Made by a program: the position numbers and the translations under genes. The notes beneath the pieces are model-generated. The model was not told where the DNA came from and did not search any database. It worked only from the letters and a program-made list of their open reading frames with translations. A stretch of 64,000 nt of DNA from Fervidobacterium pennivorans DSM 9078 (GTDB lineage Bacteria > Thermotogota > Thermotogae > Thermotogales > Fervidobacteriaceae). This document shows, piece after piece, positions 39,346 through 54,060 of the stretch. Within the stretch, counting starts at the first letter, position 1, and each line of letters starts with the position of its first letter. Location of the stretch: assembly GCF_000235405.2 (NCBI RefSeq), contig NC_017095.1:1079501-1143500 (forward strand), written 5' to 3'.

Positions 39346-39553
39346 ATGAGCAAAATGTTTCTGGTTCCTTGTTTAACATATCATCACTATATTTCCTTTC
39401 CTCACTTTTGTGTCATCATTCTTGTTCAATAAATTCTTTGGTACACTTATTAGTTCACTTTTTACAGCAATTTTTTGCCTTCGTTGGAGTTACTTGAGAA
39501 AGGAAGGGGATGGATCATTTGGCTTGAAAACATTATTTTTTTCAGCTTTTTGA
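39346..39553 (+). other. Leader with ribosome site and short hydrophobic reading frames
   Basis: GAGGTG is followed by ATG 39346, which opens a 28-codon frame ending at TAA 39430-39432. The +1-shifted frame is then open to TGA 39551-39553 and is rich in hydrophobic residues ('FLFNKFFGTLISSLFTAIF'). Either a small membrane protein was broken by a frameshift here, or a short leader peptide precedes the glycosyltransferase. No family is recognised. Confidence 0.3.
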
Positions 39554-40614
39554 TAATATCTGCATTTTATTACTACTATTCAACAAAAAGGGTACTACAT
39601 TTAAAAGAAAAAGCATTCAATGATGAAAAATTGAACGCAGAAAATTACTGTGTTTCTGTGATAATACCTGCCAGAAACGAGGAGAAGAATTTATCTAAAC
39701 TCTTGCCTCTTTTACTGGACCAATCTGTCCGACCATATGAAATTATTATAGTTGATGATAATTCAACTGACAACACTTCAGTTGTTGCAAGCAGTTTTCC
39801 AAATGTATGTGTTGTCAAGCTGACGACTGAGCCCCCAAAGGGTTGGATTGGAAAGTCTTGGGCAATTTGGAACGGATATCTAAACTCGCATGGTGATTAT
39901 CTGCTCTTTTTAGATGCGGATGTTGAACCAAGTAATGTATTTATTGAATCGCTTGTTAAAATACATAAGAAGTATGGTGGTTTGCTATCTATATGGCCTT
40001 ATCAACGTTTGGAAAAATTCTACGAACATTTCACATTACCATTTAATCTTATGATTGTATATGCTAGTAACAATTTAGGTTTTCCAAACAAAAAACCTTC
40101 CGGTGCTTTCGGACCAGTGATCTTTACTTCGAAAAAAGATTATCAACTAATAGGAGGACATGAAGCTATAAAAGATAGTGTCCTTGAAGATATCAAACTT
40201 GGAAGACTGTATTCTGAACATGGTTTGAATGTGTCGAATTTTCTTGGGAATCATACAGTTAAATTTAGAATGTATCCATTAGGACTTAAACAACTTTTCG
40301 AAGGCTTTTCAAAAAATATGTCCTCAGGTGCAATAACAGGTGGCTGGTTTTCTTTTATTCTCGCCATTCTTTGGATGTTCGGAATTTATTCCTCGATGAC
40401 TTCAATCTTCACTTTTGGTGGAATTTTGCGTTATTTTGTGACTTCTATTGTGTTATACATCATGGCAAAACCAACAGGAGAATACACTTTTTACGATGCA
40501 TTACTTTATCCAATGTATTACGCGTTTTTCTTGATTGTTTTCTTTAATTCTCTGTATTTAACGATATTCAAAAAAGAGGTTTATTGGAAAGGAAGAAAAA
40601 TTGATGTTCAATAA
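39475..40614 (+). CDS. Family 2 glycosyltransferase, CrtQ/HpnB-like
   Basis: A 379-aa membrane glycosyltransferase. An N-terminal helix (~19-38) is followed by the GT-A core: 'VSVIIPARNEEKNLSKLL', 'IIIVDDNSTDNT', the family mark 'PPKGWIGKSWAIWNG' and the DxD-type 'LLFLDADVEPS'. Two or more C-terminal helices follow. The 'GW-GK-WA' motif is typical of glycosyltransferases in carotenoid (CrtQ) and hopanoid (HpnB) clusters. The start is uncertain: TTG 39475 is the first possible codon, and no clear ribosome site serves it. Confidence 0.82.
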   Translation: MPSLELLEKGRGWIIWLENIIFFSFLIISAFYYYYSTKRVLHLKEKAFNDEKLNAENYCVSVIIPARNEEKNLSKLLPLLLDQSVRPYEIIIVDDNSTDNTSVVASSFPNVCVVKLTTEPPKGWIGKSWAIWNGYLNSHGDYLLFLDADVEPSNVFIESLVKIHKKYGGLLSIWPYQRLEKFYEHFTLPFNLMIVYASNNLGFPNKKPSGAFGPVIFTSKKDYQLIGGHEAIKDSVLEDIKLGRLYSEHGLNVSNFLGNHTVKFRMYPLGLKQLFEGFSKNMSSGAITGGWFSFILAILWMFGIYSSMTSIFTFGGILRYFVTSIVLYIMAKPTGEYTFYDALLYPMYYAFFLIVFFNSLYLTIFKKEVYWKGRKIDVQ

Positions 40615-41257
40615 CAAAATTCCAATTTATTTATCAATCATTGCACTACAATTTCTTTCTGGTAGTGTCATGTATTCATACATATTTGCAAAATTACTTA
40701 GGATTGATTTAACGAAAGTACGTGACGGCAATCCCGGCTCGTCTAATCTTTGGCGTGTCGCCGGATGGAAATGGGGTTTTACAGCACTTGCACTTGATTA
40801 TTTTAAAGGAACACTACCACTTGCCATCTTCATTCTTAAATACGGTCAATCTTTAAATAAATATATAATTTCTCTTGCAGCACTTGCTGGGATTCTCGGA
40901 CATGCTTTTTCACCAATGCTTAAATTCAAAGGCGGCAAAGCAATAGCAACATCTTTTGGTGCATGGTCTGTTCTTACAAAATGGGAAGGCCCCACAATCC
41001 TTGGTGGAGTTTTCACTGCATTTTCTGTGTACCACATGTTAATTGGAAAAAAGCAAACAACTCCTGAAGAGGACACTATCAGAGTTTTGTTCGGTTATAT
41101 AGCACTTCTTGTGTATGTCATATGGAAATCCATGCATGGATATTATGAGCTTACAATTCTTTACATAGGTAATTTGTTTGTTATTCTATATAAGCACAGA
41201 AGGGAATTAGCAAAAATAATATTTCATAATAAGGCTAAAGCGAGGTCCCATGTATGA
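40604..41257 (+). CDS. PlsY-like glycerol-3-phosphate acyltransferase family membrane protein
   Basis: A 217-aa multi-spanning protein. 'VRDGNPGSSNLWRVAGWKWG' and 'GHAFSPMLKFKGGKAIATSFG' are the PlsY phosphate- and glycerol-binding motifs. It differs from housekeeping PlsY in context (inside a biosynthetic cluster, far from plsX), so it may acylate a different acceptor, as CrtO does in staphyloxanthin synthesis. It overlaps the glycosyltransferase by 11 nt and the next gene by 4 nt. Confidence 0.85.
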   Translation: MFNNKIPIYLSIIALQFLSGSVMYSYIFAKLLRIDLTKVRDGNPGSSNLWRVAGWKWGFTALALDYFKGTLPLAIFILKYGQSLNKYIISLAALAGILGHAFSPMLKFKGGKAIATSFGAWSVLTKWEGPTILGGVFTAFSVYHMLIGKKQTTPEEDTIRVLFGYIALLVYVIWKSMHGYYELTILYIGNLFVILYKHRRELAKIIFHNKAKARSHV

Positions 41258-41559
41258 GAACTTCAGAAAAACTATTTTTTCTAATTTTTGTGTTAGTTTT
41301 TTTGTTTCTGATTAATATATCTATATTTTCACAGAATAACAATAATATGAATGTGTATTATCAAAGATTTTTAGATGCGCGTTCTTTCAAAAACGAGACG
41401 GAAATGCAAAAATTGAACTATGCTATAGAAAATGAATTAATGACTAATTTATACGATAATTCCGAAATTCTAAAACTTAAAACACTACCTTCTGAGGTTT
41501 ATGAGAAATTTGGCGAAGAGCTCATGGAGTACAAGAAAAGAACAAGAATGTTTATCTAA
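41254..41559 (+). CDS. Small exported or membrane-anchored protein of unknown function
   Basis: A 101-aa protein. The N-terminal hydrophobic segment (~8-26, 'FFLIFVLVFLFLINISIF') is a signal peptide or anchor, followed by a polar, helical, charged domain. ATGA overlap with the PlsY-like gene indicates translational coupling. I recognise no family. Confidence 0.7.
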   Translation: MRTSEKLFFLIFVLVFLFLINISIFSQNNNNMNVYYQRFLDARSFKNETEMQKLNYAIENELMTNLYDNSEILKLKTLPSEVYEKFGEELMEYKKRTRMFI

Positions 41560-41581: not shown

Positions 41582-42565
41582 ATGATTAAAAATCAATGGT
41601 ATGTTGTTTTGTCTTCAAGTGAATTAAAGAAAGGGCAATTGATTGGGTTAACAAGGTTTGGTGAAAAACTTGCGATGTGGCGTGACGAAAAGGGAGATGT
41701 GCACTGTATATCTGATATATGTTGTCATCGAGGTGCTTCTCTATCTCATGGTAAACTCCTTGCTAATGGTGAAAGATTAATGTGTCCTTTCCATGGTTTT
41801 GAGTATGATCCGACTGGAAAGGTTCAGGCTATACCATCAAATGGTCGAACAGCACCAGTTCCAGAAAATTTCAAAGTGAAATCATACAAAACATATGAAC
41901 TTGCTGATTTTATCTGGATATGGTATGGAGATAACGATCCGCCTTCACCACCAAGTTACTTTGACGATATAGATGATTCATTAGTTTATAGCCAATTCAG
42001 TGAAATTTGGAATGTCCATTACAGCAGAGCTATAGAAAATCAGCTTGATCCCATACATGTTCCTTTTGTTCATTATAATACCATTGGTCGCGGAAATAGA
42101 ACAGTAGCTGATGGCCCTATTGTGAAATGGATTAACGATACTATGTTTTATTTCTACGTTTTTAATAGAGTTGATGATGGGACCCCTGCAAGAAAACCTG
42201 AGGAAATGGAAATTTCTGAAATGAGCAAAGTGTACCTTGAGTTTAAATTTCCAAATATTTGGCAAAATCACATACATGAAAAATTGAGAGTAACAGCCGC
42301 TTTTGTTCCTATCGATGATGAACATACTCTGATATATCTTCGTTTCTACGTAGGATTTACGAAAATCAAATTTATAGACAAGCTTATATCTTTACTTGGT
42401 ATGCCATTCAACAGGAAAGTATTGCACCAAGATAAAGCTGTTGTTGAAACACAGATTCCTAAGAAATCAGAGCTCAAGATGTCAGAGAATCTAATAAACG
42501 GTGATTTACCCATCCTAGAATACAGAAAGAAAAGAGAAAAATTGAAGAGTGTTATTAATGATTAA
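41582..42565 (+). CDS. Rieske [2Fe-2S] non-heme iron oxygenase (alpha-subunit type)
   Basis: A 327-aa protein. The Rieske cluster ligands are Cys47-x-His49 and Cys68-x2-His71 ('CPFHGFEY'). The C-terminal catalytic domain has the mononuclear iron motif Asp156, His159, His164 ('LDPIHVPFVHYN'), with candidate third carboxylates in the tail. 'QWYVVLSSSEL' at the start is typical of ring-hydroxylating and related oxygenases. Such enzymes use O2 and need a reductase or ferredoxin; none is in the cluster. ATG 41582 follows AAAGGGGAAG. Substrate unknown; the neighbours suggest an isoprenoid, lipid or sterol-like compound. Confidence 0.88.
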   Translation: MIKNQWYVVLSSSELKKGQLIGLTRFGEKLAMWRDEKGDVHCISDICCHRGASLSHGKLLANGERLMCPFHGFEYDPTGKVQAIPSNGRTAPVPENFKVKSYKTYELADFIWIWYGDNDPPSPPSYFDDIDDSLVYSQFSEIWNVHYSRAIENQLDPIHVPFVHYNTIGRGNRTVADGPIVKWINDTMFYFYVFNRVDDGTPARKPEEMEISEMSKVYLEFKFPNIWQNHIHEKLRVTAAFVPIDDEHTLIYLRFYVGFTKIKFIDKLISLLGMPFNRKVLHQDKAVVETQIPKKSELKMSENLINGDLPILEYRKKREKLKSVIND

Positions 42566-42577
42566 AGGGGTGAGTTA

Positions 42578-43051
42578 ATGGATATGACAAAACAAAAAAA
42601 TCAAAGTGATAATGAATACGCGATAAAATCATTAGAACAGTTAATCCAATTGTGGACAAAGACGTACAACGATGAAGGTAAGCCCGATTGGTCGCATCTT
42701 TTACCTTATTATGATGAAAATATACATTTTAGGGACACTGTTCAAGAAATATATGGTATCGATGAGTTCAAAGCTATGGTCGAGCGTTTAACAAAGCGCT
42801 CTAAAGAGCTGCATATGAAAATTTTAAACGCAGTTATGGAAGGTAATATCATCTTTGTAGAGTGGAATATGATTATAAACTTCAGAAAGACTAAAACATC
42901 AGTAGTTCACGGTACAAGTAGACTTATTCTCAATGAGAAAGGAAAGATAATAGATCAAAGGGATTACTACGACTTATGGGGTGATATATTCGACAATATC
43001 CCAATATTTGGTAAAATTTATAGAAAATTCATGAAAAGGGTGTTTGGATGA
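42578..43051 (+). CDS. SnoaL/NTF2-like protein
   Basis: A 157-aa alpha+beta-barrel protein. 'LIQLWTKTYNDEGKPDWSHL', 'YYDENIHFRDTVQEIYGIDEF' and 'VEWNMIINFRKTKTSVVHGTS' follow the NTF2-like polyketide cyclase/isomerase pattern. Members bind or isomerise small hydrophobic compounds. GGGGTGA precedes ATG 42578, and the stop overlaps the SDR gene by 4 nt. Confidence 0.78.
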   Translation: MDMTKQKNQSDNEYAIKSLEQLIQLWTKTYNDEGKPDWSHLLPYYDENIHFRDTVQEIYGIDEFKAMVERLTKRSKELHMKILNAVMEGNIIFVEWNMIINFRKTKTSVVHGTSRLILNEKGKIIDQRDYYDLWGDIFDNIPIFGKIYRKFMKRVFG

Positions 43052-44028
43052 GGAAAGAATATAATGGTTGCTCAGTAAGAAGATATTGGTCCCAGTACAA
43101 ATGGTCAAACATATTTGAGATGATACGGAATATGTCCAGCAAGCCAAAAAAATGTTCAGATAGGTTCGACGGAAAACTTGTTGTTATAACAGGAGCAACA
43201 TCGGGTATAGGTTATGAAACAGCAAAAAAGTACGCTTCAAACGGTGCAAATTTACTTACAATAAACAGAAATAAAGCTAAATCGGAGGCTCTATGCAAGG
43301 AAATATCGGAACGTTATGGAACAAAATGTAGTTACATAATTGCTAATTTAAGCAAAATAAAAGATATCAAAAATGTCGTAGAAAAATTAAATTCGCTCGA
43401 TTCAAAAATAGACGTTCTTATTCACAACGCTGGTTTGTATCTCAATAAACTGACTATTACAGAGGATGGTTTCGAAACAAACTTTGTCGTACATTATCTC
43501 GCCCCGTTTATAATAAATTACTCTCTAATTGAAAAGCTAAAGAAAGATAATTCAACCCGTATAGTATTAGTTAGCTCTGAAGGATACAGATTTTCAGCAT
43601 GGGGAATATGCTTAGATGATTTGAACTGGCAAAAGAGAAAATATTCAGGCTTAAAAGCATATGGAGCTGCAAAACTTGCTCAAATTTTGAGTATGCATAT
43701 TTTTGCAGAAATTTTCATTTCTAATAACCTCAATGTTACCATTAATGCTATGCACCCAGGCTTTGTAAGAACAAACACCGGTCAGGACAATGGACCTGTA
43801 TATAAATTTTTCAAAAAGAATTTTTTAGATAAAATATCCCGAGATCCTTCAGAGTCAGCAGAAGCACTTTATTATCTAGGAGTATCTAAAGAAGTCGAAG
43901 GAATAACAGATAAATTCTTCCATTACACTAAAATTGAAGAACTAGCACCTCCTGCAAAAGATATCGAATTAGCAAGGAATTTGTGGAAAAAAACATTAGA
44001 AATTATGAAAGACGCTTGTGGTTTTTAG
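43048..44028 (+). CDS. Short-chain dehydrogenase/reductase, retinol dehydrogenase-like
   Basis: A 326-aa SDR with a ~40-residue N-terminal extension. 'VVITGATSGIGYETAKKYA' is the nucleotide-binding TGxxxGIG, 'IHNAGLYLNKLT' the NAG motif, 'IVLVSSEGY' gives the catalytic Ser, and 'YGAAK' the Tyr and Lys. 'TINAMHPGFVRTNTG' follows. It probably oxidises or reduces a hydrophobic alcohol or ketone made by the cluster. ATGA overlap with the SnoaL-like gene. Confidence 0.88.
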   Translation: MRKEYNGCSVRRYWSQYKWSNIFEMIRNMSSKPKKCSDRFDGKLVVITGATSGIGYETAKKYASNGANLLTINRNKAKSEALCKEISERYGTKCSYIIANLSKIKDIKNVVEKLNSLDSKIDVLIHNAGLYLNKLTITEDGFETNFVVHYLAPFIINYSLIEKLKKDNSTRIVLVSSEGYRFSAWGICLDDLNWQKRKYSGLKAYGAAKLAQILSMHIFAEIFISNNLNVTINAMHPGFVRTNTGQDNGPVYKFFKKNFLDKISRDPSESAEALYYLGVSKEVEGITDKFFHYTKIEELAPPAKDIELARNLWKKTLEIMKDACGF

Positions 44029-44040
44029 AGAGGTGAAAAT

Positions 44041-45642
44041 ATGTTAAAAAAGCAAAGAAAAAAGGTAATCATAGTCGGCGGAGGGATATCAGGACTTACA
44101 GCATCTGTTTACCTGGCGAGAAAAGGTCATAATGTAACACTATTTGAAAAAAACGAGAAGTGCGGTGGTTTGGTAAATACTTTTGAATACAATGGTTTCA
44201 AACTTGAAGGTGGCGCACGCGCACTCGTGAACGCTGGTGTCATTATCCCAATGATTGAAGACCTCGGTTTAGACATAGAGATACTTAAAAATCCTATCAC
44301 AATAGGTATTGAAGATAAGATACTACGTGTCAACGGTGTTGAAAGTTTAGAAGAGTATGCAAAAATTCTAGAAGATATCTATCCTGAAGCAAATAAGGAA
44401 ATTGATGAATTGATATATGTTGAAAAGGAAATACTTGAATACATGAAAATCCTTTATGGCGTTGACAACCCACTCTTTTCTTTCAACAAAATAAAAGAAG
44501 AGGGAAAGCTTTTAGAGATGATGCCACGATACCTAATCTGGTTTTTTAAGTTCTTGAAGACCATAAAAAAGATAAATGAACTAAATGACCCCGTAGAAGA
44601 TTATATTTCAAAATTCATCAAAAACGCTTCTTTAAAAGATATTGTGATACAACACTTTTTCCGAGGTACTCCTTCATTTTTCGCATTGAGCTACTTCTAC
44701 TTATATCTCGATTACATATATCCAAAAGGTGGTGTTGGAACTTTTACACAAAAACTTGCCGAAAAGATAACCGAATATGGAGGTAAAATTTTTACTAATA
44801 CATCAGTTGTAAAAATCATTCCATCAAAAAACATGGTGATTGACAACAAAGGAAATTCACACAATTACGATGAATTGATTTGGGCTACGGATTTGAAAAC
44901 TTTTTACAAAATTCTTGATGAAACAAATCTGCCAAATTACTTGGTAAACAAAATTGAAAAGGAAAAAAATAAGGTGATGAAAGCACGTTCTGCTGAATCA
45001 GTTCTGACGGTATATCTTGGTATAGATGAGCCATCTGACTCGTTTGAGAAGATTTCAACAGGTCACTTCTTCTACACACCAAAAAGAAATGGAATTGGAG
45101 AATTCAACAAGTCTTGGCTTAAAAGGATTATAGAAAATTACGAAAATACAAGCAAAGAGGAAATTCTTAAATGGCTTGAAGGTTTTATTAACTACAACAC
45201 ATATGAAATTTCTATACCGGTTCTAAGAGACAAGAGTATGGCACCAGAAGGCAAGACTGGATTGATTGTAAGTTTCCTTATGGACTATGCTCTTGTCAAA
45301 AAGATAAGTGAAGATGGTTGGTATAACGAATTCAAAGAATACGCTCAAGACATTATAATCAAAAACTTAAAAGAAAGCATATATCCATTCATCGAAAATA
45401 AAATAATCTTTAAGTTTACTTCAACTCCACTTACCCTTGAAAAGATGTATGAAACATCAGAAGGCTCTATCGTAGGTTGGTCTTTTGAAGATGAAATACC
45501 CGTTCCTTCTGGCATTTTCAACATGAAAAAATCGGTTAAAACCCCCTTAAAAAATATATACAAGGCAGGAAAATGGGCATATTCTCCCGCTGGAGTCCCA
45601 ACTGCAATAATTACAGGTAAGTTGGCTGCAGATATGATATAA
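44041..45642 (+). CDS. CrtI/CrtN-like FAD-dependent oxidoreductase (phytoene desaturase family)
   Basis: A 533-aa flavoprotein. '[20 protein letters not shown]' binds the FAD ADP part, '[21 protein letters not shown]' is the second conserved block, and '[21 protein letters not shown]' and the C-terminal '[20 protein letters not shown]' complete the family pattern. CrtI-type enzymes desaturate, isomerise or saturate isoprenoids; the family also includes all-trans-retinol saturase-like proteins. Last gene of the cluster, 12 nt after the SDR. Confidence 0.88.
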
Positions 45643-45827: not shown

Positions 45828-46262
45828 GGTCCGGCGCTGGAACCTCACAGAGATCAGGTGTTTCTCGCCTGGAAAACGACAGAAAGAACAAAAGAAGGAC
45901 CCTGGAAAAAACTGAACGAGTCCTTGAAGAGACTCCGCACAGATCACTTCGATTTCTACCTCTTTCACGCTGTGACCACTTTAGATGAGTGGAAGCCATC
46001 TTTCCACCGGGCGGAGCTGCAGAGGCTTTTTTAAAGGCGAAAGAAGAAGGCCTTATAAGATACAGAGGAAGCATCCATGGCACTCCGTTTCACACTTTCA
46101 CTGCCTGTTACTGCTGCGGTGAGTCCAAGTCATCAGGAATTTCTGTGGTGGATGTGTGACATTGTGGAAAAACAGGGAACGGAAATCAGCAAAGAAGAGC
46201 TGAAAATACTCGAAGAAAAAGCAAAAACAGTGGTGCCTGTTTTCCCTCTGGATCACTCCTGA
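45828..46262 (+). pseudogene. Aldo/keto reductase remnant
   Basis: 45828-46074 reads in one frame as an internal part of an aldo/keto reductase ('LNESLKRLRTDHFDFYLFHA', 'AFLKAKEEGLIRYRG'). 46077-46262 continues in another frame as the C-terminus ('PVTAAVSPSHQEF', 'EELKILEEKAKTVVPVFP'). The N-terminal third and a middle section are missing, so the gene is dead. Its base composition is less AT-rich than the cluster to its left, with Thermotoga-like codon choice by eye. The end overlaps the tail of the next gene by 10 nt. Confidence 0.8.
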
Positions 46263-47836
46263 ATCATGTAGCGCATGATACTTGTTAGCTTTCTTCTGAT
46301 TTTAGCGTTTTCTTCACACCAGAAAGCCACAAAAGAGGGCTGGATTTTGAGGGAGTACTTCTTTGCAAACTCTCTCACCTCGTCTGGCCCTTTCAATCTG
46401 ATTTCAAACTTTACTCCATCGTACCTTCCATGGTTTCTCAAAAATGTATTGATCAATACCTTTTCTTCTTTTCCAAGTTCTCCATATCTTTCTATAAATT
46501 CTGAAAGCCTTCTTCCATTCATTTTATCCAGAGCTTTACTTAAAGTTGCCTTTCTTCCTTCAATATATGGATGTGCCCTGATCATCTCTGCCACAAATCG
46601 CATAGTTTCATATCTCTTGCTCATGAACTCTTTGAATTCTTCGGGATACTCAAGTAACCTGCAAGCTTCCCTAAATTTATCCTTTCTTGATATGTAGAAC
46701 TCCTTTTTTCCTATCTGTGCCATGTACGTTGAAATGAACAACTTTTTTCTTTTAAGCGGTGGCATCTCTTTGATGCTTTTTATCGCTTCTTCAAATCGCA
46801 TCTCTATCTCCAATTTGACTAGTTCATTGTACACGGGAAAAGGTGCTTTGACATTCACAGTAGAAGGTTTTATTAACTTTTTCAGAGTATTTCCCCTGAC
46901 ACTTTGTGTTTTTCCGTTTATAATCTCGGAAAGCCTCCCGGCTGACACCCTTTCTTTTCTGTATGTTCCTACCATGCCTTTAATGAAAGTCCTCAGTTCT
47001 TCTGTATTTGGATACTCTGACACGTTATAGCAGGGCTTCCACATTCTAACCTCATCTAAAAATTCTGAGTGGATCTCTGGAACTGTCAAAGAAGAGATTA
47101 TTTCTGCCGTGAACGCGGTAGAAACAAGGCCAAGGTATTTTTCAATTGTGAAAAGGGTATCAAATGCATCAAAAAGATTGCCTGCTTCTTCGCGATAGTA
47201 TCCAAGCCAGAACACAGCCTTCTGCGAGATGGAATAAGCCCAGATGGGATGTGTTTTTCTTATTCGCCATGCTATGCCATTCAAAGCGCTGACCATACCG
47301 GATGGGTGAGGTACTTTCTTTGAATGTTTGTACGACCGAACATAATGGAATATTGCCTCTGAGATCTTACTCTGCTCTGCGAGTTTCCTAGCCCTTGCAA
47401 GATGCAAGAACGCAGATGTTGGATCATCTACTTCGTACTCCTTTCCCCATATTCTCACGGATCGTGAAGATGATATACCGAACGCTTCGGCGTTTATTAA
47501 CACAGGTAAAGCAACATTACGAGCTATTTTTGACATCGAAGGTAGTCTTTTTTTCAAGTATCTGTACAGCTTCAAATCAGGTTTTCCCAGGTTTCTGGAG
47601 ATACCCAGTTTCTTAGCCATTAAAATGTCTCTTGCCGTTTTTGACCTGCAGACTTTCAGTGCTTTTTCTATCATCTGAAGAGCTGGTTCATACTCACCTC
47701 TCCAGATATGTTTAATCACCTGTGCGAAAACTTTCCAGTTTTCGGGGAAATCATTCTCAAGAAGATAGTTAACAAAAGGAACTGTGAAAGAACCGTATGT
47801 GAATATTGGTCGAAGAATATCCGGTATTTTCTTCAT
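46253..47836 (-). CDS. Large helical protein of unknown function (possible TPR-like repeats)
   Basis: A 527-aa basic, almost all-helical protein. The first ~280 residues resemble tetratricopeptide-type pairs ('KHIWRGEYEPALQMIEKALK', 'ARKLAEQSKISEAIFHYVRS'). Around residue 325-350, 'VSAGRLSEIINGKTQSVRGN' and 'TLKKLIKP' look like the second half of a Cro/XRE-type helix-turn-helix. I do not recognise a named family; a regulator is one guess. ATG 47836 follows AGGGGGA. The IS21 element begins within ~20 nt of its ribosome site, so its promoter has been replaced. Composition matches the foreign genes around it. Confidence 0.65.
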   Translation of the reverse strand: MKKIPDILRPIFTYGSFTVPFVNYLLENDFPENWKVFAQVIKHIWRGEYEPALQMIEKALKVCRSKTARDILMAKKLGISRNLGKPDLKLYRYLKKRLPSMSKIARNVALPVLINAEAFGISSSRSVRIWGKEYEVDDPTSAFLHLARARKLAEQSKISEAIFHYVRSYKHSKKVPHPSGMVSALNGIAWRIRKTHPIWAYSISQKAVFWLGYYREEAGNLFDAFDTLFTIEKYLGLVSTAFTAEIISSLTVPEIHSEFLDEVRMWKPCYNVSEYPNTEELRTFIKGMVGTYRKERVSAGRLSEIINGKTQSVRGNTLKKLIKPSTVNVKAPFPVYNELVKLEIEMRFEEAIKSIKEMPPLKRKKLFISTYMAQIGKKEFYISRKDKFREACRLLEYPEEFKEFMSKRYETMRFVAEMIRAHPYIEGRKATLSKALDKMNGRRLSEFIERYGELGKEEKVLINTFLRNHGRYDGVKFEIRLKGPDEVREFAKKYSLKIQPSFVAFWCEENAKIRRKLTSIMRYMIQE

Positions 47837-47980
47837 CTCAATCCCCCTGTTTCTGTTATATACAAAAAAAATCAAAATATTGTTAATGATAAAATAAAAA
47901 TGTACTGAAAGTGGAATATAAGGATGTACAAAATTGTACATTGATATGATATCCTTTCTCATAGTGAGGAGGGATATCAA

Positions 47981-49183
47981 ATGCAGAACTTAACAGCACA
48001 TTTAAACATGATAAGGGCGATGAAAATGAAACCTAACTTTTCAGAACTTGCAAGAATATATGGGATGGATAGAAGAACAGTTAAAAAATATTATGAGGGT
48101 TATGAAGGAAAACCTAAGAATAGAAATAAACCAAGTAAATTGGACAAATACTATGATGAGATAAAATCAAAGCTTGCTATCAAAGGAGTTACAGTCAAGG
48201 GTGTTTATGAGTATTTAAAATCAAAAGATGAGACAATAGGAACATACTCAAATTTCAATAAGTATGTTAAGAAAAAAGGATTAAAGCCAGAGAAGAAAGT
48301 AAAAGGTCACCCAAGATTTGAGACAGATCCAGGTGAGCAAGCGCAAGTTGATTGGAAAGAGAATATAAAGCTTGTCTCAAGAAATGGAGAGGAGTTTGTT
48401 ATTAATGTTCTTGATTTTAAATTAGGTTATTCAAGATATTGCTGCTTTGAGATAAACAGGACAAAAACTCAAGAAGAATTAATAGAAAGTCTAATAAGAA
48501 TATTCAAAGATATAGGCGGAGTACCTAAAGAGATTTTATTTGACAATGCAGCAGCAGTTGTTGATATAACAGGTGAGAAAATTAAAGTAAATTCAAGATT
48601 TAAAAGTTTTGCAAAAGACTTTGGGTTTGAAGTGAAACTGTGCAAACCAAGACATTCGTACACAAAAGGAAAAGTTGAAGCAGCAAACAAGTTTATAGAT
48701 TGGATACTGCCATATCAGGGTGAATTTGAAACAGAAGAGGACTTAGCAAGGATAATAAAAGAGATAAACGCAAAGGTCAATATGCAGCCAAATCAAACAA
48801 CTCAAGTCCCACCTGCTCTTCTGTTTCAAAAAGAAAAAGAGTATTTACAACCCTTGCCAGACAAAAGGTTAATAGAGAGTTACCTAAATTCCTACAAGTC
48901 AGTTAAAGTCCAAAAGGACTCTCTGATTTACTACAAGGGAAGTAAATACTCTGTTCCACCCGAATACATAGGAAAAACAGTCCAAGTAAAGGAGGTGGAA
49001 AACAAAATTTATATTTATTATAACACAAACCTGTTAAGGATACATGTTATTGATGAAAAAAGTATCAATTATCACGATGAAGATTACAAACAGCTAATGC
49101 TAATGAGAGTTGGTCAAAAAGAAGAGCTTAACAAGATATGTGAGGAGAACGTAAAGAAATTTGATAATCTGTTGAAAAACTAA
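47981..49183 (+). CDS. istA: IS21-family transposase IstA
   Basis: A 400-aa DDE transposase. An N-terminal helix-turn-helix ('NFSELARIYGMDRRTVKKYY') is followed by the integrase-like core with Asp124 ('QAQVDWKE'), Asp188 ('EILFDNAAAVV') and Glu233 ('KGKVEAANKFID'). All three catalytic residues are present, and length is normal. GAGGAGGGA precedes ATG 47981. Confidence 0.95.
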   Translation: MQNLTAHLNMIRAMKMKPNFSELARIYGMDRRTVKKYYEGYEGKPKNRNKPSKLDKYYDEIKSKLAIKGVTVKGVYEYLKSKDETIGTYSNFNKYVKKKGLKPEKKVKGHPRFETDPGEQAQVDWKENIKLVSRNGEEFVINVLDFKLGYSRYCCFEINRTKTQEELIESLIRIFKDIGGVPKEILFDNAAAVVDITGEKIKVNSRFKSFAKDFGFEVKLCKPRHSYTKGKVEAANKFIDWILPYQGEFETEEDLARIIKEINAKVNMQPNQTTQVPPALLFQKEKEYLQPLPDKRLIESYLNSYKSVKVQKDSLIYYKGSKYSVPPEYIGKTVQVKEVENKIYIYYNTNLLRIHVIDEKSINYHDEDYKQLMLMRVGQKEELNKICEENVKKFDNLLKN

Positions 49184-49203
49184 AGAAAGGAGAAAATCTA
49201 AAA

Positions 49204-49968
49204 ATGAGCAACTATGTGAAACTACTTAACAACTTAGAAGAGTTAGGTCTTCACAACATAAAGAATAATCTTGACAAATACTTAGATTTAGTGGCAAGCG
49301 GAGAAAAGAGTATGACAGATGCATTGTATGAACTTAGCAACTTAGAGATAAAAGCCAAAGAAGAAAGGGCTATATTAGGATGTGTGAGGGTGGCAAATTT
49401 CCCATTTATAAAAGGTATAGAAGATTTTGATTTTTCATTTCAGCCAAGTATAAACAAGCAACAGATAATGGACTTAATGAGTTTGAGATTTTTAGAGGGT
49501 AATGAAAATATACTATTTGTCGGAACACCAGGGGTAGGGAAAACGCATCTAGCCACAGCAATAGGTATAGAGTGTGCAAAACGAAGGTATTCAACGTATT
49601 TTATACATTTTCAAGAGTTAATAGCTCAGCTAAAGAAAGCATTATTGGAGAACAGATTAGAGTACAGACTTAAGCATTTTTCGAAATACAAAGTTTTAAT
49701 AATAGATGAGATAGGTTATTTGCCAATAGACAATGATGGAGCAAATTTATTTTTCCAGCTGATATCAAGCAGATATGAGAAGAGCAGCACAATAATAACA
49801 ACTAATGTTGTATTTTCAGAGTGGGGAGAGATATTTGGTGGAGCGACGATAGCAAATGCAATTTTGGATAGGCTACTCCATCATTCTTACGTGATTTTCA
49901 TAAAAGGTCCTTCATACAGATTGCAGTCAAAAACAGTATATTTTAGCAACACAAACCAGCAAAACTAA
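49204..49968 (+). CDS. istB: IS21-family ATPase helper IstB
   Basis: A 254-aa DnaC-like AAA+ ATPase. Walker A 'GTPGVGKT' (107-114), Walker B 'VLIIDEIGYLP', sensor 'STIITTNVVFSEWGEIFGG'. It selects target DNA and activates IstA. It lies 20 nt after istA with AAAGGAG before the ATG. Confidence 0.95.
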   Translation: MSNYVKLLNNLEELGLHNIKNNLDKYLDLVASGEKSMTDALYELSNLEIKAKEERAILGCVRVANFPFIKGIEDFDFSFQPSINKQQIMDLMSLRFLEGNENILFVGTPGVGKTHLATAIGIECAKRRYSTYFIHFQELIAQLKKALLENRLEYRLKHFSKYKVLIIDEIGYLPIDNDGANLFFQLISSRYEKSSTIITTNVVFSEWGEIFGGATIANAILDRLLHHSYVIFIKGPSYRLQSKTVYFSNTNQQN

Positions 49969-50625: not shown

Positions 50626-52347
50626 ATGAAGTTCTTTTCACTTCCTGAACATATCAGAGAGAGCATAAGAAAATTTGAAAGAAAATACAGAGGATACTAT
50701 CCACTTTTCTTTTTTCTTGAAGCGCTGTTTCTGATTTTCAACATTCTCACCCCTCTTCTCATCAAAAGCACCATCGATAGTGCTTTTTACAAAGGAAGTG
50801 TCAGGGAGATTTTGCTCTTTGCAGGCCTGTATCTCCTCGTTCTGATTCTTCAGTCCTTTGTGATGTACAAACTCAACTATTCAGCAGCCAGATATCTGGT
50901 CAATAACTCACGCATCAGAGAAACAAGGAGCACCTATGCAAAGCTTCTATCTCTTCCCCTCGATCATCTGAGTCCTCAAAACGCAGGTGATTATCTCTCT
51001 GTGTTCACACGGGACATACCAAAGGCAGTTTCAGGGATATACCTTGGAAGATTACAGATTTTATTCAATCTGGGATTTTTCGCCGTTGTTCTTGTGGTGC
51101 TCTTCTTCCTAAACGTGAAGCTAACCATCGCTGTTCTTGTAAGTATTTTTCTGTTTTATCTGTCGACTCTTTTCTTCAAAAAACTCGTCATCAGGACCTC
51201 TCAGAAAGATCAGGAGAGCTATCAAACGTTTATGAAGAGAGCAAGAGAGGTGATCGAAGGAACTTCAACTCTCAAACAGTTCTCTGCTTCTTCACTGCTC
51301 AAAAATTTTCTTGACTCAAGTGCCAGGGAGTGGAGCAGAGCAAATATTAAGTACAGTGTGGCAAGTGAACTATCAAACACAAACATCGATATGAACAGGT
51401 GGATAGGGAGCACCCTTGTACTTGCCTTTGGAATATACCTTCTCTGGAAAGAGGAAATAAGTGTCGGAACTCTTGTTGCCTTTCAAGCCTACATGAACTG
51501 GATATACGACACCGTGAGAATGGTGCTCACAGGTTTGACTACGTTCTTCTCCTCGCTACCAAACTGGGAAAACTTCACGAGAATCTTCTCGCTGCCTTTT
51601 GAGAAAACAAGTGGAAGGAACCTGGAAGAGTTCGAAAAACTGGAAGCTGAACACGTCGAATTCAGCTATAGCGGAAACACAGTACTCACCAATATAGATA
51701 TGAAAATAAAACGGGGTGATAAAATCGCCATAGTAGGGGCTTCGGGAGTAGGAAAAAGCACTCTTGTTTCTCTGTTCAACCGTCTCCTCTCACCCACAAA
51801 GGGTAAAATCCTGATCAACAACATTCCCATCGAGGAGTACTCTCTCTCCTCTCTCAGAAAAAGTATCATCCTTGTTCGATCAAACGACATGCTCTTCGAC
51901 ACCTCAATAAGAAACAACATCACCTTCTTCGAACACTTCCCCAAAGAAGAGATAGAGAAAGTCCTCAAAATATGTGAGTGTGATTTTGTGGAAAGGCTGG
52001 AAAACGGAATAGACACCCCTGTTGGAGAGAAAGGTGCAAAACTCTCAGATGGCCAGAGGCAGAGAATACTTCTTGCAAGAGCTCTTTTGAGAAAGCCAGA
52101 AGTGTTGATTCTGGATGAAGCCACCTCTGGCATAGACAGTGAAACAGAAGAGAGAATACTTGAAAGAATCCTGAAAGAAATAAACACCGTAATCATCATC
52201 TCCCACAGACTTTCTACAATAAAAAAGGCCAGGAAGGTATATGTCCTGGACAGCGGACGTATCCTGGACTCTGGAACTCATGAAGAACTGATGAGCAGAT
52301 GTGAAAGATACAGAGAGCTTCTAGAAAAACAGTTCATAAAGAAGTGA
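50626..52347 (+). CDS. ABC exporter half-transporter (membrane plus ATPase domains)
   Basis: A 573-aa protein. Six membrane helices span ~20-300, then an ATPase domain: Walker A 'GASGVGKST' from residue 371, signature 'LSDGQRQR', Walker B 'VLILDEATSGID' with the catalytic Glu, and H-loop 'ISHR'. The Q-loop position reads 'LVRSNDMLF', with Ser in place of Gln, and the signature has Asp for the first Gly. GGAGGAGGGA precedes ATG 50626. With the next gene it probably forms a heterodimeric exporter; substrate unknown. Base composition is higher in GC than the host genes. Confidence 0.9.
   Translation: MKFFSLPEHIRESIRKFERKYRGYYPLFFFLEALFLIFNILTPLLIKSTIDSAFYKGSVREILLFAGLYLLVLILQSFVMYKLNYSAARYLVNNSRIRETRSTYAKLLSLPLDHLSPQNAGDYLSVFTRDIPKAVSGIYLGRLQILFNLGFFAVVLVVLFFLNVKLTIAVLVSIFLFYLSTLFFKKLVIRTSQKDQESYQTFMKRAREVIEGTSTLKQFSASSLLKNFLDSSAREWSRANIKYSVASELSNTNIDMNRWIGSTLVLAFGIYLLWKEEISVGTLVAFQAYMNWIYDTVRMVLTGLTTFFSSLPNWENFTRIFSLPFEKTSGRNLEEFEKLEAEHVEFSYSGNTVLTNIDMKIKRGDKIAIVGASGVGKSTLVSLFNRLLSPTKGKILINNIPIEEYSLSSLRKSIILVRSNDMLFDTSIRNNITFFEHFPKEEIEKVLKICECDFVERLENGIDTPVGEKGAKLSDGQRQRILLARALLRKPEVLILDEATSGIDSETEERILERILKEINTVIIISHRLSTIKKARKVYVLDSGRILDSGTHEELMSRCERYRELLEKQFIKK
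51705..52218 (+). repeat. 514-bp direct repeat, copy 1 (ATPase domain of first ABC gene)
   Basis: Nearly identical to 53421-53934; I count five base differences by eye. The sequence similarity stops sharply at both ends, although the genes remain homologous. Confidence 0.95.
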
Positions 52348-52365: not shown

Positions 52366-54060
52366 TTGAAAGGGAAAAAACTGCGCATTATGAGAATGAC
52401 ACACATAAAACTTGCCATTTTAACAACCTTGAGTTTGATCCTCTCGAGCTTCTTCTATTCCAGAAGAGTCACTCTGCTGCAAAACGCTATTGACACGGCT
52501 TTACAAAATAAAGGGCTGTCAGCCTTTCTGGGCAATGTCATACTGTTTCTTGGATTTCTCATACTGACGATCGCTTTCGACTTTATCGCCAGTTTCGTCT
52601 CTGCCGTTAACAAAGTGGGAATGTTCAGGAACCTGGTGGAGAGTCAGATAAAACTGATGCTCAACGCCGATACAAACGATTTGAAAAGAAAAAACACGGG
52701 TGAAATAATAACACGGGTATTCGATGACGGGTGGTATGTAATTGATATATACGCTCAGGCACTTCCGGAACTGATATCTCTATCTTTCAAAGTGGCTTTA
52801 CTTGTGGTTGCATTTTACCAGCTCAGCCCCTGGCTTCTTCTGATAGCACTGTTGCTATCTCCTATATACGGCTTCCCTATATCCACCTCCCGAAAAAAAA
52901 TAAAGGATTATCAACAAAAAGAACGTTCAAGCTTTGAAGAGTGCGTCAAGTTCATAAACGAGACTATGAGCGGAATCAACGTTATCAAAGCGTTTGAATC
53001 CAAGAATGTGTTCTATAAAGAATTTGGAAAGCGCTCAAACCTCTGGATGAGCGCCCTGAACAATCTGTTCAATGTGATAGCAAAGACAGAGAGTCTCTTC
53101 CCGTTTCTGAATGGTCTGCTTCCAATAACCGTTGTTACCTTGTCCTCCATTCTCGTTGCAAGAGGAAAGATAACGATCGGAAGTGCGATCTCCTTTTACT
53201 ATTTCGTAAGTGGCTTCTACGGCTCTGTAAGCGGTGTCTACAGCTCTGCTCTGGACTTCATAAGGTTGGGGATATACAGAAGACGTATCCAAGAGATTGC
53301 TCAACTCAATCCTGAAAAAGAAGGTAAAAAAGTGCTCAGAGACATCAAGGAAATACGTTTGCAAAATGTCTCTTTCAACTATCCTGATGGTAAAGAGATT
53401 CTCACTGACCTGAATCTCAGAATAAAACGGGGTGACAAAATCGCCATAGTAGGGGCTTCGGGGGTAGGAAAAAGCACTCTTGTTTCTCTGTTCAACCGTC
53501 TCCTCTCACCCACAAAGGGTAAAATCCTGATCAACAACATTCCCATCGAGGAGTTCTCTCTCTCCTCTCTCAGAAAAAGTATCATCCTTGTTCGATCAAA
53601 CGACATGCTCTTCGACACCTCAATAAGAAACAACATCACCTTCTTCGAACACTTCCCCAAAGAAGAGATAGAGAAAGTCCTCAAAATATGTGAGTGTGAT
53701 TTTGTGGAAAGGCTGGAAAACGGAATAGACACCCCTGTTGGAGAGAAAGGTGCAAAACTCTCAGATGGCCAGAGGCAGAGAATACTTCTTGCAGGAGCTC
53801 TTTTGAGAAAGCCAGAAGTGTTGATTCTGGATGAAGCCACCTCTGGCATAGACAGTGAAACAGAAGAGAGAATTCTTGAAAGAATCCTGAAAGAAATAAA
53901 CACCGTAATCATCATCTCCCACAGACTTTCTACAGTGAGGAAAGCAAGCAAGATCATTTTAATGAACGGCGGAAAGGTGGAAGCTGAAGGAACACATGAA
54001 GAACTCATGGAAAAATCTCCTCTCTACAGAAATATCGTGAAAAACCAGCTTGTGATGTAG
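52366..54060 (+). CDS. ABC exporter half-transporter, partner of the preceding gene
   Basis: A 564-aa protein with six membrane helices (~18-290, sequence unlike the first gene) and an ATPase domain almost identical to it: Walker A from residue 363, signature 'LSDGQRQR', Walker B 'VLILDEATSGID', H-loop 'ISHR', and the same Gln-to-Ser Q-loop change. In the region after the signature, 'LLAGALL' replaces 'LLARALL', losing a well-conserved Arg. TTG 52366 after GGAGGG is the likely start; ATG 52390 is possible. It lies 18 nt after the first gene. Confidence 0.9.
   Translation: MKGKKLRIMRMTHIKLAILTTLSLILSSFFYSRRVTLLQNAIDTALQNKGLSAFLGNVILFLGFLILTIAFDFIASFVSAVNKVGMFRNLVESQIKLMLNADTNDLKRKNTGEIITRVFDDGWYVIDIYAQALPELISLSFKVALLVVAFYQLSPWLLLIALLLSPIYGFPISTSRKKIKDYQQKERSSFEECVKFINETMSGINVIKAFESKNVFYKEFGKRSNLWMSALNNLFNVIAKTESLFPFLNGLLPITVVTLSSILVARGKITIGSAISFYYFVSGFYGSVSGVYSSALDFIRLGIYRRRIQEIAQLNPEKEGKKVLRDIKEIRLQNVSFNYPDGKEILTDLNLRIKRGDKIAIVGASGVGKSTLVSLFNRLLSPTKGKILINNIPIEEFSLSSLRKSIILVRSNDMLFDTSIRNNITFFEHFPKEEIEKVLKICECDFVERLENGIDTPVGEKGAKLSDGQRQRILLAGALLRKPEVLILDEATSGIDSETEERILERILKEINTVIIISHRLSTVRKASKIILMNGGKVEAEGTHEELMEKSPLYRNIVKNQLVM
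53421..53934 (+). repeat. 514-bp direct repeat, copy 2 (ATPase domain of second ABC gene)
   Basis: Pairs with 51705-52218 at an offset of 1716 bp, about 99% identical. Of the five differences I count, two change an amino acid (Tyr to Phe and Arg to Gly). Confidence 0.95.

Follow-up and report, generated by a model that had tools for sequence, protein, structure and literature searches.

The open reading frame at positions 41582–42565 (plus strand) of the window, by which we mean the whole 64,000-nucleotide stretch analysed here, was confirmed by Pfam, ligand alignment and an AlphaFold model to encode a full-length Rieske non-heme iron oxygenase (RO) of the alpha-subunit type. We estimate a probability of about 0.45 that the protein is a functional monooxygenase or demethylase of Rieske type, which would use O2 opportunistically when a fermenter meets air and light and here would act within a lipid-tailoring operon, both the part in the operon and that in the response to light being read from gene context. 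Rieske oxygenases are usually regarded as enzymes of aerobes. Neither the operon, with its lipid-type enzymes, nor the linkage of relatives to light and UV genes was part of the original prediction, while the existence of ROs in Thermotogota, Fervidobacterium included, is already known from a catalogue published in 2017 (PMC5209329).

The Rieske oxygenase and its operon

The RO gene begins with an ATG at 41582, just downstream of the ribosome site AGGGGAAG, ends with a stop codon at 42563–42565 and specifies 327 amino acids, in which Pfam recognized a Rieske domain (PF00355, E 1.2e-25) and a VanA_C domain (PF19112, E 7.3e-13), both above cut-off. The [2Fe-2S] ligands of the C-x-H...C-x-x-H site (C47-H49/C68-H71) were present, and alignment with known ROs identified the mononuclear iron ligands H159, H164 and D284 together with the bridging D156. 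All eight residues were invariant in 20 Thermotogota sequences and in 92/92 aligned members of the subfamily described below, and were also kept in nine outgroup ROs. The expectation that every cluster and iron ligand would be intact was thus borne out, none being missing on alignment. Compared with the main Thermotogota copies, the protein showed 72–86% identity and a dN of about 0.1–0.25; dN/dS was 0.05–0.09, an indicative value limited to the three pairs with computable dS, synonymous sites being saturated in most pairs.

A search of PDB sequences returned SxtT, GxtA, NdmA and DdmC as the nearest solved relatives. In the AlphaFold model (63-sequence alignment, pLDDT 95.2) the predicted RO fold spans the whole chain, and the model superposes on guaiacol demethylase, SxtT, DdmC and NdmA with Z scores of 29–30 over 293–304 residues. 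The protein is thus like SxtT/GxtA, DdmC (dicamba), NdmA (methylxanthine) and guaiacol demethylase (7qwt) in fold, domain order and all ligands, but shares only 17–25% identity with these enzymes, whose hosts are aerobic and whose substrates and reductases are known. The best NCBIfam match was the SdmA 4beta-methylsterol monooxygenase (NF052579), with 80.1 bits over residues 4–269; identity as SdmA was rejected on account of the cut-off of 600 bits and of the lack of a squalene synthase in the window's genome. The 2017 catalogue (PMC5209329) contains the F. pennivorans RO AFG35170, ACJ75179 of Thermosipho africanus and ROs of Thermotoga, which resemble the present protein in phylum or genus and in RO alpha-subunit homology, AFG35170 being likened to it by catalogue description. 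The same paper lists the phytoene-dehydrogenase-like AFG35173 as a possible RO partner, but its aim was biotechnological aromatic oxidation, and neither an anaerobe-wide subfamily nor light-gene neighbours appear there.

The genes of the operon are all in the same orientation (plus strand) and either overlap or lie at most 22 bp apart. The first encodes a CruG/HpnB-like glycosyltransferase of family 2 (GT2; 39475–40614; PF00535, E 1.1e-22), which scored far below the NCBIfam cut-offs for CruG and HpnB, and the second a PlsY-like acyltransferase (40601–41257; PF02660, E 1.4e-33) below the PlsY equivalog cut-off. Between these and the RO gene is a remnant ORF of 101 amino acids (41254–41559) in which blastp of both halves, together with Pfam analysis of intact versions, recognized the N-terminal part of a TPR protein followed by the 20 C-terminal residues of a membrane methyltransferase of ICMT/PEMT type. 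Intact TPR and ICMT-type methyltransferase genes occupy the corresponding place in loci L027 and L029, and a deletion that fused the two genes appears to have produced the ORF. The RO gene is followed by genes for a SnoaL-like protein of 157 amino acids (42578–43051; PF12680, E 2.4e-11), a short-chain dehydrogenase/reductase (SDR; 43048–44028; PF00106, E 3.6e-29) and a CrtI/phytoene-desaturase-like FAD protein (44041–45642; PF01593, E 8.5e-22; below the cut-off of NCBIfam crtI_fam).

The GT2/CrtI-like/acyltransferase pattern of this operon is similar to the tail of a staphyloxanthin-type pathway. A carotenoid cluster in the window's genome was nevertheless ruled out by the absence of phytoene/squalene synthase (PF00494) from that genome, and Pfam and NCBIfam detected no genes for a beta subunit, a ferredoxin or a reductase among those of the operon. 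The order GT2-PlsY-RO-SnoaL-SDR-CrtI is kept in L026, L027 and L029, with variants in L028, L041 and L042. As the SnoaL-SDR-CrtI module exists without RO in other Thermotogota, and most RO relatives are found without the module, presence in one operon need not imply a common pathway. A GT2-PlsY-SnoaL-SDR-CrtI module also occurs in L172, L173 and L174, in Thermotogota without phytoene synthase, and is in some cases accompanied by TspO or a second CrtI copy (in L172, the RO-less module adjoins TspO), and might represent an undescribed lipid pathway.

A subfamily found mainly in anaerobes

The window's genome, a single contig of 2.17 Mb, belongs to the Thermotogota, in which ROs were found in 23 of 103 genomes from eight genera. 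No heme-copper oxidase (COX1) was detected in any of the 103 genomes and no cytochrome bd oxidase in the window's genome, in agreement with the anaerobic host that had been presumed; neither oxidase was found in 21 of the 23 RO-positive genomes. As the related Thermotoga maritima takes up O2 although harmed by it (PMC3065215), an enzyme that uses O2 is no contradiction in a host of this kind, and the earlier suggestion that the enzyme may work in micro-oxic settings is consistent with the data.

Seventeen sequences formed the main Thermotogota RO clade (support 0.998). A second Thermotoga type was placed with sequences of WOR-3 and Thermococcaceae (support 1.0); the copy of Athalassotoga clustered with those of Mesoaciditoga and archaea (support 0.989). 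For these two, lateral transfer in separate events is suggested. The picture of a lone gene acquired from a donor had to be given up, the main copies making up one clade and the subfamily being spread across anaerobes. In L031, L044 and L078, which come from Thermotoga and a Thermococcaceae MAG, the RO gene is followed by a gene for a similar membrane protein of no known family, which suggests transfer of the two as a pair.

Members of the subfamily occur mainly in anaerobes, namely Anaerolineae, Clostridia, Spirochaetota, Bacteroidales and Asgard and Thermococcaceae archaea. They range from 44 to 86% identity and share an invariant ENQxD motif, whose Q154 is absent from the nine outgroup ROs. 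The best 80 relatives in a collection of named genomes (44–76% identity) came mostly from anaerobic lineages, and the best plasmid-borne ROs were 28% identical to the RO of the window. Monophyly received a support of 0.84, partly by construction, as members were picked by similarity and the outgroup consisted of nine plasmid ROs; the tree left out the incomplete homologues L067 and L077 and the interrupted L081. Among 50 subfamily genomes, COX1 passed the cut-off in 14 and bd oxidase in 18, and neither was found in 29, an upper estimate as many of the 50 are incomplete MAGs. A literature search that covered few subscription journals retrieved no paper on ROs of anaerobes and, within the same scope, no report of an anaerobe-enriched subfamily, a signature residue or light-gene neighbours.

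Light and UV genes near relatives

The neighbourhoods of 75 loci (L051–L125) were surveyed. In five of them (L060, L068, L069, L087 and L097) a photolyase gene directly adjoins that of the RO, which is far from chance because PF03441 photolyase is present in only 14 of the 50 genomes (binomial P about 7e-13 if the loci were independent, which they are not, all five being Chloroflexota of shared ancestry). Heliorhodopsin adjoins RO in L053 and L078, one from a Chloroflexi and one from a Thermococcaceae MAG, and MerR-B12 (CarH-type) regulators, DUF1731-type epimerases and a TspO-like gene without a Pfam match were located nearby in 8, 5 and 4 of the 75 loci, respectively. According to PMC8612252, heliorhodopsin is associated with genes for photolyase, UvdE and carotenoids and is present in strict anaerobes too. 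The gene neighbourhoods described there are the closest known to those of the relatives, but a search of the text gave neither ‘Rieske’ nor ‘oxygenase’.

The window's genome itself has two photolyase-family genes and one heliorhodopsin gene, all far from RO. The latter (L188, 7665–8414, at about 1891 kb; PF18761, E 4.6e-97) was the only one above cut-off among the 23 RO-positive Thermotogota genomes, a broken fragment being seen in one congener. Within the window's family, photolyase was found in 8/11 RO-positive versus 0/9 RO-negative genomes (P 0.0014), but across the 103 Thermotogota no significant association was obtained (9/23 RO-positive versus 22/80 RO-negative, P 0.31). The linkage of relatives to light and UV genes suggests when O2 would be available, and judged by gene neighbourhoods the subfamily overall is best read as part of a light/oxidative-stress response of anaerobes.

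Proposed function and alternatives

The oxygenase would operate during transient micro-oxic, sunlit exposure, for example at a hot-spring surface or an oxic–anoxic edge. No dedicated reductase gene lies nearby, and electrons are proposed to reach the [2Fe-2S] cluster held by C47, H49, C68 and H71 from a rubredoxin, ferredoxin or flavodoxin serving as general carrier. From the cluster they would cross between subunits of a trimer, by way of D156, to Fe(II), which, held by H159, H164 and D284, would activate O2. A dedicated common donor was considered and rejected because the downstream proteins differ, that of Athalassotoga (150 amino acids) matching flavodoxin weakly, with a score under the cut-off, and those of the Thermotoga and Thermococcaceae copies looking like membrane proteins. 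The substrate would most likely be a membrane or envelope lipid, possibly an isoprenoid. The SnoaL, SDR and CrtI-like proteins may act on this lipid as well, with GT2 and PlsY-like steps to follow.

The concentration of the subfamily in oxidase-free genomes, and a Q154 invariant in it and lacking in the outgroup, could also point to chemistry independent of O2, in which the Rieske cluster and iron site would serve a reduction, or a redox step whose oxidant is a different one. This we judge quite improbable, as all ligands of the O2-activating site are kept and relatives occur in genomes with terminal oxidases as well; moreover, we know of no RO that works without O2 or peroxide. Modification of a carotenoid, retinoid, other light-absorbing isoprenoid or tetrapyrrole pigment is suggested by the carotenoid cluster (PSY, CrtI, CruF, CrtO and tocopherol-cyclase-like) that adjoins RO in Athalassotoga, by PSY or CrtI near L059, L097 and L124 and by TspO next to the RO operon in L042. 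However, phytoene/squalene synthase is lacking in all RO-positive Thermotogota except those of the Athalassotoga type, the window's genome included, and Pfam reported no PAO-type domain; a pigment substrate is likewise quite improbable.

An enzyme serving mainly to remove oxidants, i.e. an electron-driven O2 or H2O2 reductase (by uncoupled turnover or a peroxide shunt) with a protective role and product formation as a secondary matter, would suit anaerobic hosts without terminal oxidases, the common uncoupling of ROs to H2O2 (PMC12445004) and the MsrAB gene in the RO neighbourhood of L041. It appears unlikely nevertheless, although less so than the other alternatives, as NADH oxidases and related enzymes already remove O2 in Thermotoga (PMC3065215), H2O2 released by ROs would increase damage, and the operon contains genes of biosynthetic type. 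Automatic annotation, and the labels of related proteins (PMC5209329), point to a catabolic aromatic ring-hydroxylating dioxygenase, a very improbable assignment here given that the closest structures belong to single-component demethylases and hydroxylases and that genes for a beta subunit, ferredoxin, reductase or aromatic catabolism are missing nearby. The decayed gene at 41254–41559 and the interruption of some homologues (L019, with one stop, and L081) could be taken as signs of a functionless relic, which is scarcely credible in view of the complete ligands and the strong conservation of the protein.

An opportunistic, O2-using monooxygenase or demethylase is hence the reading we prefer for the RO of the window. 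Its extension to the whole group, namely that anaerobes of many phyla, bacteria and archaea alike, share an unrecognised RO subfamily that takes part in the response to light and air exposure, with O2 as co-substrate in the remodelling of membrane lipids or isoprenoids by cells with no other use for oxygen, is put forward as a tentative and somewhat doubtful proposal. If true, anaerobes would maintain a biosynthetic oxygenase for times of exposure to air and light. Whether strict anaerobes can have O2-dependent steps of their own becomes a testable question, and the subfamily offers thermostable ROs.

Some further features were observed in the course of the analysis. In Athalassotoga saccharophila (L045/L093), the cluster adjoining RO comprises PSY, CrtI, CruF, DUF92, GT2, CrtO and tocopherol-cyclase-like genes, and the genome encodes a bd oxidase. 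Within the window, a minus-strand ORF of 575 amino acids without a Pfam or NCBIfam match (46253–47980) adjoins IS21-type transposase genes (47981–49968). A 514-bp stretch covering the ATP-binding domain (51705–52218 and 53421–53934) is 99% identical at the DNA level between two neighbouring ABC transporter genes that are otherwise unlike, which looks like the outcome of gene conversion.
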